From Flaviaesturariibacter aridisoli (GTDB taxonomy: Bacteria; Bacteroidota; Bacteroidia; Chitinophagales; Chitinophagaceae): a stretch of DNA of 64,000 nucleotides. Position 1 is the stretch's first letter, and the number at the start of each line of letters is the position of its first letter. The notes beneath the pieces were generated by a model. It made no database searches. It saw only the letters and a program-made list of their open reading frames with translations, and was not told the origin of the DNA. The translations under genes were made by a program, and so were the position numbers. Positions 26,748 through 63,999 of the stretch are shown piece after piece. The DNA lies in contig NZ_SKFH01000004.1 in the NCBI RefSeq assembly GCF_004343705.1, positions 124,001-188,000 on the forward strand, read 5' to 3'.

Positions 26748-26768
26748 AACTTGTACGGCGCAAAGCCT

Positions 26769-26817
26769 ACTCATTACTCATTACTCATTACTCATTACTC
26801 ATTACTCATTACTGCTT
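26769..26817. repeat. Six perfect ACTCATT heptamers plus one degenerate copy
   Basis: ACTCATT is repeated exactly six times (26769-26810), followed by ACTGCTT, whose last base is part of the FMN reductase stop codon. In the gene's sense the unit is AATGAGT. This is the only perfect microsatellite in the window. Confidence 0.95.
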
Positions 26818-50110: not shown

Positions 50111-53100
50111 GTGCGACTAAAATCCCTGGAAATCAAAGGTTTTAAATCCTTCGCGGATAAGACCATTGTCAACTTCGACGAAAACATCACCGGCATTGTC
50201 GGGCCCAACGGCTGCGGCAAAAGCAATATCGTGGACTCGATCCGCTGGGTGATCGGCGAGCAGAAGATCTCGCATCTTCGCTCCGAAAACCTGGAGGCCC
50301 TCGTGTTCAACGGCTCCAAGACGCGCTCCGCCTCCGGCCTCGCCGAGGTCAGCCTCACCTTCGAAAACACGAAGAACCTCCTGCCCACCGAGTTCAACAC
50401 GGTGACCATCACGCGGAAATTCTACAAGAACGGCGATTCCGAATACCGCCTTAATGACGTACAGTGCCGACTGAAGGATATCCAGAACCTCTTTATGGAT
50501 ACGGGCGTTTCCACCGACTCATATGCCATCATCGAGCTGGGTATGGTGGACGATCTTATCAAGGACAAAGACAATTCGCGCCGGCGTATGCTGGAGCAGG
50601 CTGCCGGTATTTCCATCTACAAAACCCGTAAGAAGGAAGCCAAATCGAAGCTGGACGCTACCGAGCAGGACCTGAACCGCATCGAAGACCTCCTGTTCGA
50701 AATCAACAACCAGCTGAAGTCGCTGGAAAACCAGGCGAAAAAGGCCGAGAAATACTACGAGATCAAGAAAGACTACCGCGAAATCTCCGTGGAGCTGGCC
50801 AAGGCCGCCCTCGAAGGCTTCAACCTGGCCTTCCGCGACCTCAACGAAAAGCACGACGCCGAAACCGACAAGCGCATTGCCCTCGAAGCCGAGATCGCCA
50901 CCCGCGAAGCCGGCCTGGAGCAGGAACGCGTGGACTTCATCGAACGCGAGCGCGAACTCCACGCCCTGCAGCAGGAATTCAACGAGCTCGTGCAGCAGGT
51001 ACGCACGAAGGAGAACGAAAAAAACCTGTCCAGCCAGCGCCTCGAATACCTGCGCGAGCGGGCAACCGGCCTGCAGGACTTCCTGCAACGCGCCGGCGGG
51101 CAGATCTCGGGAATCGAGGAAAGCATCCAGTTCACCACGCAACAGATCGGCGACGAAGAGGAAGCCCTGCAAGGCCTGACCGAGCAGCTCGAATCGTTCC
51201 GCTCCAGCGTGGACGCCAGCCGCGGTATTCTCGACGAAAAGCGGAACGCCCTCAATAGCCTGCGCACTGCTTACCAGCAGGTACAGCGCTCGCAGTTCGA
51301 CGCCGAGAAAAAAGTAGCCATCGCCGATACTTCGATCCAGAACCTGCAGCGCGCCATCTACCAGCTGGAAGAGGAGCGCGCGCAGCGGGAGGAGCAGATC
51401 GCCGGCCTGGAGGTAGAAAAAGAAAAACGTCAGCAGGAGCTCGACCAGCGCAAGGTGGACCTCGAGCAGCTGCAGCAGCACCATAACAATACGAAGGAGC
51501 AGATCCTCAAAACCCAGCAGGTGCTCGAAGGCCTGCGCGGGCAGCTCGCCGACGAGCAGCGGATCCTCGATTCAAAAAAGAACGAGCACGCGCTCCTAAA
51601 GAGCCTCATCGATTCAATGGAAGGCTACCCGGAAAGCATCAAGTTCCTGCACAAGAACCCGAACTGGAACCACAGCGCGCCCATCCTTTCCGATATCATT
51701 TACGTGAAGGAAGAATACCGGGCCGCCGTGGAGAATGTGCTGGAGCCTTACCTGAACTATTACGTGGTGAACGACCTGCAGGAAGGCCTGCAGGCGGTGC
51801 ACCTGCTCGACGAAAACAAGAAGGGCAAAGCCAACTTCTTCCTGCTCGACCGTGTAAATGAAAGCAGCAACGGCAGCCACGCGGCGCCCGGCGGCACCAT
51901 TCCGGCCATGGACGTGATCGAGGTGGACCCGCAATACCGCGCCCTCGCCGGTCACCTGCTGGGCAACGTGTTCATTGCTTCCGATGAATCGGCGCTGGAG
52001 CACAGCAACGGCTCGGTGATCCTCGAAAAAACCGGCAAGTACGTTAAAGGCAAATACACCCTTACCGGCGGCTCCGTAGGGCTGTTTGAAGGCAAAAAGA
52101 TCGGACGTGCCAAGAACCTGGAGAAACTGGCCAAGGACATCGTAAAGCAGCAGGTGGTCGTGGACGAACTGCGCACGCAGATCCAGGCCCGCCAGAATGA
52201 AGTGGTGGCCTTCAACGCCGACCTGCGCGAGAACGCGATCCGCGAAACGGAGCGCGAGATCCAGCAGCTGACCAATGGCGCTTTCGCCGTGCAGAACCGC
52301 CTCGAGAACACGCAGCACGCCCAGGCCCAGAGCCGCGTGCGCCTCGAAGACCTGCAGGGCCAGCTGGATACTACGCACCAGTCGGTGGACGGCGTGCGCC
52401 TGGAGCTGACGCAGCTCAACGAGCACATCGCCGACTACGCCAACCAGCTCCAGGAAGCCGAGACCGCTTACCGCGACATCGAGAACGAATACAACAACGT
52501 CAATACCCAGTACAACAACGCCAACCTGAACCTGACGCGCCAGCAAAGCAAGATCTCGGCGCTGAAGCAGGAGCTTACCTTCAAGAGCAACCAGCTGCAG
52601 GACCTGCACACGCAAGTGCAGAACAGCACGAAGCAACTCGGCGAAACCAGCGAGCAGCTGGAGCAGCTCGAAAGCAGCCTGAAGGACACGGAAGAAAGCC
52701 TGTACGAGCTGATGCGCCGCCGGGAGACGGAGGAGCAGACACTCAACGAGCGGGACCAGGCCTATTACAACATCCGCAATCAGCTCTCCGCCAAAGAAAG
52801 CGAGCTGCGCGGCCTGACAAAGGAAAAGGAGCAGGTGGAGCAACTGCTGAACAGCATGCGCGACAAGCTGACCGACGTGAAGCTGCAGCTCGCCGGTATG
52901 AAGGAACGCCTCAACGTGGAGTTCCGCATCAATATTGAAGACATTATCGACGAGCCGCGCAAAGGCGAGGTGCCCGCTGAAGAATTGCAGGAAAAAGCCG
53001 AGCGCATGAAGAAGCGCCTGGAAAACCTGGGGGAAGTAAATCCAACGGCTATCGAGGCCTTCGACGAAATGAAGAAACGCTACGATTTTATCGTGGAGCA

Positions 53101-61529: not shown

Positions 61530-62360
61530 CTACCCGCCCGAAGTGCGGAAGTTGAAGGTGTACACGATCACCGACTCGTGGTCGCTCTTGTTGAAGTTCA
61601 TCACCGGCAGGTACTGCTGGATGGCGTTTTTATACTTGCTCATCGAGCCGTTGACGATCCGGCGCAGCGATGCTTTTCCACTCGGGTCGATATGCAGTTC
61701 GGCTTTGACGGTGGCCGGGGGCAGGTCGCTCTGGAAATAATATTCACGCACCACCTCGCGGTCGTTGCGGTGCACGGTGCCTTTGGGATTGCCGCCGGGA
61801 GCGCCCGCGTCGCCGGGGCCGTTGCCGGGGCCTTCGCCCGTACCGGGCTTGTAGGAGTCGGCGCCATTCCCGCCGGGCCCGGTGCCGTTGGGCGTGCGGA
61901 TGCCACCAAACACCGCCTTGGGTTTCGGGGCCGGCGGGGCGGGCGGATTGTTGGAAGGCTTTACCGCGTTGTTATCGGAATTAACGGTGGTACCCTTCGG
62001 GTTCGGCGTGACCGGGTTGCGGATCGCGGGGCCGTCGGAATGGTCGTCGGTCTCCACGGTGCGGGCGTCGCTGGTGGAAGACGATGATGAGGGCGACGAC
62101 GATGCCGGTGTGGGCACGGACGACGTGGGGCCGGGCGCGGGGGCGCCGGGCACCTGGGGCTGGTCCTTACCGGAGCCCACATCGCTGTTTCCGAGGTTCA
62201 CGTCACCGAGGTCGATCTCGATGGTTTGCTCGGCTACGGGCGGCGGCACGGTGGGGATCGGCCATTTCAGCAGTATGAACAGCAGCAGCAGGGCCGCGCC
62301 CGTGGCGCCGGTAATAATCAAAGCCTGCCGCTTGCGTTGCTGATCCCAGGTGGTCGTCAT
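61530..62360 (-). CDS. TonB-like energy transducer protein
   Basis: A 276-residue protein (282 if started at 62378). One transmembrane helix (ALIITGATGAALLLLFILLK) is followed by a Pro/Ser/Gly/Asn-rich periplasmic linker of about 150 residues and a compact C-terminal domain (LPPATVKAELHIDPSGKASLRRI). This is the layout of TonB proteins coupling the proton motive force to outer-membrane receptors. A -7 element (TACTTTTG on the minus strand, 62387-62380) lies 1 base before ATG 62378, so the next Met at 62360 is preferred. The ExbB and ExbD genes that usually precede it are missing. Confidence 0.78.
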   Translation of the reverse strand: MTTTWDQQRKRQALIITGATGAALLLLFILLKWPIPTVPPPVAEQTIEIDLGDVNLGNSDVGSGKDQPQVPGAPAPGPTSSVPTPASSSPSSSSSTSDARTVETDDHSDGPAIRNPVTPNPKGTTVNSDNNAVKPSNNPPAPPAPKPKAVFGGIRTPNGTGPGGNGADSYKPGTGEGPGNGPGDAGAPGGNPKGTVHRNDREVVREYYFQSDLPPATVKAELHIDPSGKASLRRIVNGSMSKYKNAIQQYLPVMNFNKSDHESVIVYTFNFRTSGG

Positions 62361-62379
62361 GGTGCTATAATTGGCCATA

Positions 62380-62387
62380 CAAAAGTA
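62380..62387 (-). promoter_or_regulatory. -7 element of the TonB-like gene
   Basis: The minus strand reads TACTTTTG, a perfect TAnnTTTG match. Transcription would begin inside the first codons of the longer reading frame, which argues for the start at 62360. Confidence 0.5.
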
Positions 62388-62490
62388 TTGCTTCCCGCTT
62401 TTGACTGAGTAACGGTGGAAAAGTTAGGGAAATTGCCTTCGGCTGCCGGAAAGGCGGGGAAGCTTTAACAGTAAGGCAACAGGCGGGGGA

Positions 62491-62536
62491 AGGTTTTGAA
62501 AGGATTTGGAGGTTTTGGAGGTTTTAAAGGTTGATG
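62491..62536. repeat. Nonamer repeats AGGTTTTGG
   Basis: AGG trinucleotides recur at 62491, 62501, 62510, 62519 and 62528, giving units of 10, 9, 9 and 9 bases (AGGATTTGG, AGGTTTTGG, AGGTTTTAA, AGGTTGATG). It is in the largest gene gap, between the TonB-like gene and the 21-bp array. Confidence 0.65.
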
Positions 62537-62586
62537 CAGTAGAAAGCCGCAATTATGGAAAACGCCGGGGGGATCGTATCGTTCAG

Positions 62587-62880
62587 GGGGGTAGTAACGT
62601 TCGATGGGGGGGAGGCAACATTGAAAGCGCCGGTTCCAACATTCGGAACGGGAATTTCAACGTTGGAAAGGGGGCGTGCAACCTTCCAGCCGACTTTTTC
62701 AACACCGGGAATGACGAACCGAACCGCAAAGACCGCGATTGGAACGTTCCAATCGCAACAGCGCATGGCCAGGGAGGGGGGTGTACCATTCAAATCGCCG
62801 TTTCCAACGTTCAAAATGACGATTCCAACATGGAACGGGGGCCCGCAACGTTCCAAACGGGGGGGGGCAACATTCGAGGC
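62587..62880. repeat. Array of fourteen degenerate 21-bp units
   Basis: Each unit approximates GGGGGTTCCAACGTTCRAAN with one further base. Fourteen units fit with no net insertion or deletion over 294 bases. AACGTT or AACATT lies at unit positions 10-15 in units 1-4, 8, 11 and 14, with close variants in 5, 12 and 13; 6, 7, 9 and 10 diverge more. Read on the plus strand, codon 4 of each 7-codon unit is Asn in 11 of 14 units. Two plus-strand frames and one minus-strand frame are open across the array. No spacer sequences are present, so it is not a CRISPR. The gap 62379-62967 otherwise holds only the nonamers and no supported gene. Confidence 0.9.
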
Positions 62881-62967
62881 GGGATACCCGTCTTGGACGG
62901 ACCGAAACCAGTCTTGGCCGGGGGGCATTTGCCTTCGCGGCCACCGACCGGACTTCCCGGCGGGAGC

Positions 62968-63999
62968 CTAGTGCGCGAAATCCTGCAGGTAGTCGCCCTG
63001 GATCCGCTCCATCGGCGGGTTGAAGTAGCCGTATTTGAGGTGCGGGAATTCTTCCTGCAGCAGCTCCAGCAATTGCTTCATACCCATACACTCGCCCGTT
63101 TCGCCGGCACCGATCTTGCCCAGGTACCAGTCCGGGTCGATGTTGAAAGAGCGCCACTGGATCATTTTCAGCCCCGTTTCACGAATGAGCTTCCGCAGCG
63201 CTTCATATTCCGCGACGGAGTCGGTCATACCGGGAAACACGAAGTAGTTGATGGAGGTCCAGCCGCCGAATTCGGTCACTACTTTCAGGCTTTCCACGAT
63301 GTCGTTGAAGTCGTAGTTGTTGGGCCGGTAATAGGGCATATAGATCTCGCGGCGGGCCGAGTTGGTGCTGACGCGGATGGAGTCGAGGCCCACCTCGCAG
63401 AGCGCGCGTACCGCCGCCGGCTTGGAACCGTTGGTGTTGATGTTGATGGAGCCGCGCTTCGTGTGCTTTCGTATTTCTACAATCGCCTCGCGGATCGTTT
63501 CCCACATCAGCAGCGGCTCGCCTTCGCAGCCTTGTCCGAAGCTCACGATCGGGAACGGCGCCGACTCGAGGTGGGGCACCGTGTATTCCACGATCTCTTC
63601 CGCCGTCGGCTTGAAGGTGAGGCGGTCCTGCGGCGACACGATGGTCTCGTCTTCGGGCTGGAACGAGATACATCCGACGCAGTTGGCGTTGCAGGCCGGC
63701 GAAGAGGGGATGGGGCACTCCCAGCGGCCCATGAAATAGTTGCGGGCGGCGGGGCAATTATAGGTTAGGGCGCAGTTGTTGGCGAGGTGCGCCACGAGGC
63801 GGTTGTGGGGGTAGGCGGCGATGAGGTCGCTCACGCCCTGTTGCACCTTGCCGTCGTCGAAGCCGCTGCATTCCTGGCGGATGTCCTGCTCGATGCGAAC
63901 GGCGGGAACATAGAATTTTTCGTTGTGCCAGCCCACGGCCACGTAGCTGAAAAGCGGCAGGGTGGGGGCGTCGGGGCCGGTCTCAAAGGCCGCCATATA
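62968..63999 (-). CDS. Radical SAM protein, probably truncated at its N-terminus by the window end
   Basis: At least 343 residues on the minus strand. CNANCVGC at about residues 101-108 (counted from the Met at 63996) is the CxxxCxxC cluster motif; SFGQGCEGEPLL provides the SAM-binding GGE-like loop and ININTNGSKP continues the partial barrel. The frame has no stop before the window edge, and the sequence near the Met (AAFETGPDAPTLPLFSYVAVG) looks like mid-protein sequence, so the true start is probably outside. The reaction is unknown; relatives are annotated only as radical SAM enzymes. Confidence 0.85.
   Translation of the reverse strand, partial: YMAAFETGPDAPTLPLFSYVAVGWHNEKFYVPAVRIEQDIRQECSGFDDGKVQQGVSDLIAAYPHNRLVAHLANNCALTYNCPAARNYFMGRWECPIPSSPACNANCVGCISFQPEDETIVSPQDRLTFKPTAEEIVEYTVPHLESAPFPIVSFGQGCEGEPLLMWETIREAIVEIRKHTKRGSININTNGSKPAAVRALCEVGLDSIRVSTNSARREIYMPYYRPNNYDFNDIVESLKVVTEFGGWTSINYFVFPGMTDSVAEYEALRKLIRETGLKMIQWRSFNIDPDWYLGKIGAGETGECMGMKQLLELLQEEFPHLKYGYFNPPMERIQGDYLQDFAH

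Follow-up and report, generated by a model that had tools for sequence, protein, structure and literature searches.

What is an array of fourteen 21-bp units, varied in sequence but kept in period, doing between two genes of Flaviaesturariibacter aridisoli? The array lies in a 64,000-nucleotide stretch of that genome, hereafter the window, and an earlier note made from the letters of the window had offered three readings of it: a protein-binding array, a repeat-protein gene, or a minisatellite. Here we describe the array and its gap, the company it keeps in the same genome, and its counterparts in related species, and we weigh these readings and others against that evidence.

An Array of Fourteen Units and Its Setting

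The array (62587–62880; consensus GGGGGTTGCAACATTCAAAGC, core AACRTT) is degenerate, and its reality as fourteen stacked units of 21 bp is borne out, since none of 1,000 dinucleotide shuffles matched its summed score at any period from 15 to 40. Identity is 0.43, 0.47, 0.47, and 0.45 at lags of 21, 42, 63, and 84 bp, and column-wise identity is 0.47 at period 21 versus 0.24 at periods 20 and 22. Tandem Repeats Finder detects the array just as pieces of about two copies. The AACGTT-like core said to recur at the same place in most units is there in part: by a count made by eye from the unit listing, AAC is in register in 11 of the 14 units and AACGTT or AACATT in 7, but units 9 and 10 lack an in-register AAC, and one further AACGTT is displaced by 1 bp. 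Centered on the AACGTT of unit 8 is a perfect 22-bp palindrome (62735–62756), seen as a self-match on the opposite strand. The spacing, which had been called indel-free, keeps to 21 bp overall but not at units 13 and 14 (62839–62880), where the unit listing places the core of unit 13 1 bp early, giving spacings of 20 and then 22 bp before the cores are again in phase. Such a pair of spacings would thus shift a reading frame, while the helical phase returns.

As had been remarked from the gene list, the gap that holds the array (62379–62967, 589 bp) is the largest in the window and indeed the sole called gene gap of at least 300 bp there; its best period in the core-free scan described below is 42 bp, that is, twice 21. 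It is bounded by two genes on the minus strand, namely one termed tonB-like by the earlier note (61530–62378; 282 amino acids, without a Pfam match) and a radical SAM gene (62968–63996; PF04055 in Pfam). A block of 62 bp (62376–62437, minus strand), which precedes the tonB-like gene and reaches into its start, is 80.6% identical in the congeneric F. flavus, and within it the minus strand reads TACTTTTG, which resembles what we take to be the Bacteroidota promoter element, TAnnTTTG. Scans of 62300–63000 for sigma-70-type promoters and for terminators found none, the promoter model being one that does not cover Bacteroidota promoters. The interval 62560–62900 has no match in PLSDB or INPHARED, and on this ground we reject a plasmid or phage origin of the array.

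Two other repeats were seen in passing. The first is dispersed and consists of 9- to 10-bp AAAACCTTC-like runs, found at 62490–62532 of the window, at C1:170856 and C1:354360 of the same genome, and at other places; these runs adjoin three of the arrays, and overlapping matches to the pattern number 50, 16, and 21 in F. aridisoli, F. flavus, and genome G016, respectively, versus 6, 2, and 3 matches when the pattern is reversed. The second, at 26768–26813 of the window, is a perfect 7-bp repeat, TACTCAT, in 6.6 copies.

A Genome-Wide Class of Periodic Gaps

The source genome was scanned for periodic gaps without reference to any core. The scan covered C1, C2, and C4 (373, 218, and 203 kb; about 795 kb), took its gaps from a home-made hexamer gene caller, and compared the best period in each gap of at least 200 bp, within a range of 10 to 60 bp, with shuffles of the same gap. 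A significant period was found in 25 of the 140 gaps, and in 17 of the 25 it falls at 20–22 or 41–43 bp, although one of these 17 (C1:235201, period 22) is a 2,872-bp "gap" that may contain an uncalled gene. Among the significant periods of at least 16 bp, the share at 20–22 or 41–43 bp is 17 of 19. Thus, in these 17 gaps the sites stand in constant helical phase, as is looked for in a multi-site protein-binding array. All 17 belong to the 66 gaps of at least 300 bp, and they comprise 10 tandem, 4 divergent, and 3 convergent gaps out of 74, 46, and 20, respectively. A scan of this kind misses arrays beneath called genes, and two known arrays, at C1:1315536 of genome G149 and C12:265641 of genome G195, are absent from the scans of those genomes.

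The core differs from array to array. We find AACRTT, TTGCAA, GCGCAC, TCCGGA (at 43 bp), and GGAGTA/TACTCC in alternating orientation (at 42 bp), and one 41-bp array has cores GCCGTCAGTGGCGGC with AACGCGTTT. Our initial pattern searches were biased to AACRTT-type cores, and one of them to TTGCAAG, for which the reversed pattern is itself an AACGTT-type core and so provides no valid control; the core-free scans are independent of any core. Dyad symmetry of the consensus reaches p ≤ 0.03 in 8 of 17 arrays, 4 of the 8 having been found with a half-palindromic probe, and it passes the same threshold in 4 of the 6 arrays found without a probe.

Periodicities of other kinds also occur. The strongest in the scanned stretches is an array of 34-bp units, 94% matching, within a gap of 956 bp (C1:209985–210222). 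At 51361–51528 of the window there is a 21-bp periodicity within a long open frame (1,178 amino acids), which is present in the F. flavus counterpart as well; the translation of this frame resembles an SMC-like coiled coil, which would explain the period in an ordinary way, and we do not count it as a member of the class.

Coding, RNA, and Mobile-Element Readings

A gene for a protein with 7-residue repeats was one of the readings first proposed, and the open frames on which it was based do exist, the window array being stop-free in two frames of the plus strand and one of the minus strand. Of 11 arrays examined, 10 are open in one frame or more, and the gene caller places a gene over the array at C5:94421. 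However, genes are called over only 1 of 24 arrays, in a list built partly from uncalled gaps, and the periods of 22, 41, and 43 bp in the class are neither heptads nor multiples of three. Moreover, stops interrupt all six frames at C4:68326 and in 8 of the 17 arrays taken from other genomes, the ends of which were set automatically and may include flank. A check at the level of codons in the window array points the same way, given that information content in the AAC frame is 0.70, 0.47, and 0.56 bits at the first, second, and third codon positions, respectively, and the third is therefore not the most relaxed. On the periods and the six-frame stops we reject a repeat-protein gene for the class, and we regard this reading as very improbable.

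Palindromic cores might equally be expected of an array of RNA or single-strand hairpins, and some arrays fold well, such as that at C1:170549 with a z of −8.3. Yet the mean fold z is −2.80 for 50 array strands versus −3.00 for 16 control gaps, and the window array scores −1.0 and −1.2. Complementary partners within units exceed chance in none of 26 arrays, which argues against hairpin covariation, and Rfam gives no match up to E 1 in 62300–63000. With no signal from folding, covariation, or Rfam, we reject RNA hairpins and cruciforms, a reading that is hardly tenable. Within-unit complementarity is in fact below the between-unit level in several 21-bp arrays, and the lack of covariation between symmetric positions fits a site that is read as a consensus rather than as a hairpin.

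A mobile or MITE-like element carrying a minisatellite, in the manner of BrickBuilt (see below), would be in keeping with the discrete presence or absence of whole arrays between terminators and with one array (C39:31286–31579 of the source genome) that adjoins a Mutator-family transposase gene. Against this, 17 arrays compared together with 350 bp of flank share no terminal element among the best 40 BLAST rows, where matches between arrays come from the repeats proper, from paralogous genes, or from an AAAACC-type run; the units, furthermore, differ between arrays. Because no common leader, tail, or terminal inverted repeats appear in these 40 rows for the 17 arrays, a single MITE family is rejected, and we consider a mobile element of this kind unlikely. 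The window array is not a CRISPR array either, its units sharing 47% identity rather than being near-identical repeats.

Column Conservation and Decay

There is a further rival, and a serious one, in which the arrays are neutral minisatellites: tandem duplication, for instance by slippage or template switching on wrapped DNA, would mechanically favor lengths of two or four helical turns, and the units would then decay without any function in cis. We think this quite possible. To weigh it, the unevenness of columns was set against two models, namely star decay, in which identical units decay evenly, and duplication of neighboring units. Of the twelve 21-bp arrays of the source genome, 11 conserve their core columns beyond what star decay would leave (p < 0.02; 28/2000 for the window array). 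Against neighbor duplication, p < 0.05 is reached in 7 of 14 21-bp arrays; the window array is not one of them (153/1000), and for it this neutral model stands unrejected. The column test is not significant in the five 41–43-bp arrays tested, nor in the array that F. flavus has at the site of the window array. In most 21-bp arrays identity does not change with the distance between units, which speaks against neutral duplication and decay, whereas it falls with distance in the 41–43-bp arrays and in the array on C34, where adjacent units are near-identical, as such a process would leave them. The neutral account also has two things left to explain, in that the preference for 21 and 42 bp needs a cause of its own, as does the stronger conservation of cores than of spacers.

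The array on C34 (C34:3349–3684) has a partner at C13:64147–64398 of the same genome, and these two share the same consensus in the same phase and match about equally at every 21-bp shift. Thus, the consensus has survived while the identity of single units has been lost. The two arrays precede two paralogous genes of about 230 amino acids without a Pfam match, with 83% identity over 188 bases. Because units are detected by their phase, indels stay hidden, and we therefore make no use of their rarity as an argument; degenerate units without change in length, as had been suggested at the outset, would reflect age together with constraint.

Orthologous Sites in F. flavus

The earlier note had held that absence of the array from all close relatives would point to a neutral minisatellite. 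In F. flavus 17J68-12, whose proteins have a median identity of 77.9% with those of the source genome (169 reciprocal best hits), the gap between the equivalent pair of genes does contain a 21-bp array. Its core is TGCAAG, unlike the AACRTT of the window array; sequence conservation between the two species is seen in the 62-bp block at the tonB-like gene and at the radical SAM end, and the arrays themselves have no match. Two other sites are informative. The syntenic gap of C4:16579 has a 41-bp array in both species, the one in F. flavus being weaker (excess 2.3). At C2:192421 a few AACGTT units stand ahead of a 43-bp array in the source genome, and the corresponding F. flavus site is occupied by an array of 21-bp period whose core is CCAAYATTGAC. 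An AACRTT-type array in one species thus stands where the other has a 43-bp array, which suggests that core types change places between loci.

Arrays occur at shared sites more often than expected by chance, which argues against the neutral account. Among the 26 syntenic gaps that measure 200 bp or more in one species or the other, 4 have arrays in F. aridisoli and 2 in F. flavus, both of them within the 4 (chance 6/325, calculated by hand). Over all examined sites, F. flavus has an array at 4 of 10 sites with an array in F. aridisoli versus 1 of the remaining 57 gaps (p = 0.0013), and when the ruvX site, weak in both species, is left out, the shared arrays are 3 of 9 (p = 0.007). For these comparisons, 14 gene segments representing 13 arrays were queried in F. 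flavus and G016, and a usable place in F. flavus was obtained for six arrays, each with one flank checked except C1:354k; C4:24k lies outside the syntenic pairs. No place was obtained in F. flavus for C1:156k, C1:289k, C2:207k, C39, C13, and C11, and a 39-bp match for C16 was left out. The gene names given to sites were read by eye from translated ends.

The other 6 of the 10 orthologous sites have no array in F. flavus, which counts against a binding array; at the ileS, pheT, fabH, and C1:354k sites, no array with a period of 20–22 or 41–43 bp is present there. Gain or loss, as expected of neutral minisatellites, is seen at C4:68079 (537 bp), which faces 124 bp without an array in a relative, and at C4:96537 (382 bp), which faces 168 and 123 bp without an array in relatives.

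Distribution in the Chitinophagaceae

In core-free scans of other genomes, all three significant periods in 59 gaps of F. flavus are of the kind described (43, 21, and 41 bp), and so are all three in 59 gaps of G149, which belongs to another genus (42, 21, and 21 bp). No period at 20–22 or 41–43 bp was found in the 31 gaps scanned in G016, where the two significant periods are 10 and 37, or in the 91 gaps scanned in G195, where seven are significant at 10–15, 53, and 56. At the radical SAM locus across named Chitinophagaceae, a period of 21 or 41 bp is present in just 2 of 142 gaps from the best 80 loci, one of them that of F. flavus, and we therefore reject family-wide generality at this locus. 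Since G016, G195, and most of the radical SAM gaps lack these periods, the 21/42-bp signal is confined to some lineages and is not a property of the Chitinophagaceae at large.

A search with an AACRTT-type pattern matched in 26 of 394 genomes of the family, some of these by chance. Near-identical 21-bp arrays with AACRTT-type cores occur in several further Chitinophagaceae genomes, and young-looking arrays of this kind in other genera, several of them at contig ends, favor neutral duplication. Four near-identical 21-bp arrays in G374 and G284 (L304, L306, L307, and L309) extend to or near the ends of contigs, perhaps because they break short-read assembly.

A Putative Row of Binding Sites

Judging from the DNA sequence, we tentatively favor the hypothesis that the window array belongs to a genome-wide class of noncoding, helically phased arrays of putative protein-binding sites. 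Binding was the best supported of the three readings first offered, on the strength of periods of two and four turns, conserved core columns, dyad-symmetric consensuses, and an array of the same period in F. flavus, although the core in that species is a different one. Each unit would consist of a short core, dyad-symmetric in many arrays, and cores recurring every 21 bp (two turns), or in units of 41–43 bp (four turns), would place the sites on one face of the helix. There, an oligomerizing and probably dimeric DNA-binding protein might bind side by side, cooperatively along the row. A short core that meets the same face of the helix at every second turn, with spacers free to vary and no set orientation relative to genes, is most simply accounted for by a row of sites for a cooperative protein. 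Because gaps of all three types, tandem, divergent, and convergent, contain arrays, the use of such a row would probably be architectural, in the organization of the nucleoid or of domains, and the mixture of gap types disfavors an array that serves a single promoter.

Given that cores differ between arrays, one sequence-specific protein cannot read them all, and the differing cores would call for several proteins, for a weak reading of sequence, or for coevolution of binder and site. We infer that selection acts on the arrays. A more far-reaching hypothesis, possible but doubtful, is that place and helical phase are selected while cores are exchanged between loci and species, and that fast-evolving DNA-binding proteins coevolve with them to organize the nucleoid. 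In some Chitinophagaceae, tens of chromosomal arrays would then form a bacterial counterpart of satellite turnover.

Relation to Known Systems and Significance

In iterons and ParR-type arrays, sites recur at intervals of about two turns along a single face of the helix, with one core per system and a known binder. The window array and its class would resemble them in this two-turn, one-face spacing; here, however, there are many chromosomal arrays with differing cores, and the binder is putative.

Among dispersed repeats, BrickBuilt of Porphyromonas gingivalis is reported to be a minisatellite of 23-nucleotide units within a MITE that has a leader, a tail, and terminal inverted repeats (PMC4596501). 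It is similar in placing short tandem units at many intergenic positions of a Bacteroidota genome, but it has one unit, whereas the present arrays have degenerate units of 21 or 41–43 bp, a core of their own in each array, and no common ends that we could find. The Borg elements of archaea are reported to carry perfectly repeated tandem units of many lengths, some of them intergenic, with rapid turnover and with gain and loss between relatives (PMC9879509); the turnover is alike, but here the units are degenerate and fall into two length classes. In Beggiatoaceae and some Bacteroidetes, intergenic TAACTGA heptamer repeats, mostly located close before start codons, are also direct repeats proposed as binding sites, and they differ in having a single 7-bp unit, the present units being longer, degenerate, and found in all gap types (PMC4679880). 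A literature search, with most subscription journals outside its reach, found no published description of the class.

Dispersed intergenic repeats of bacteria are usually recognized as families of similar copies. What stays constant here is not the sequence but the geometry, with its two or four turns of the helix, and to some extent the position, and ordinary motif searches would therefore miss the class. That F. flavus 17J68-12 has an array in the equivalent gap makes the question testable. If no protein reads the arrays, a mutational process that writes periods of 21 and 42 bp into the gaps between genes would be worth knowing in itself. If a protein does read them, they would represent a new chromosome-organizing or regulatory layer in the Bacteroidota.
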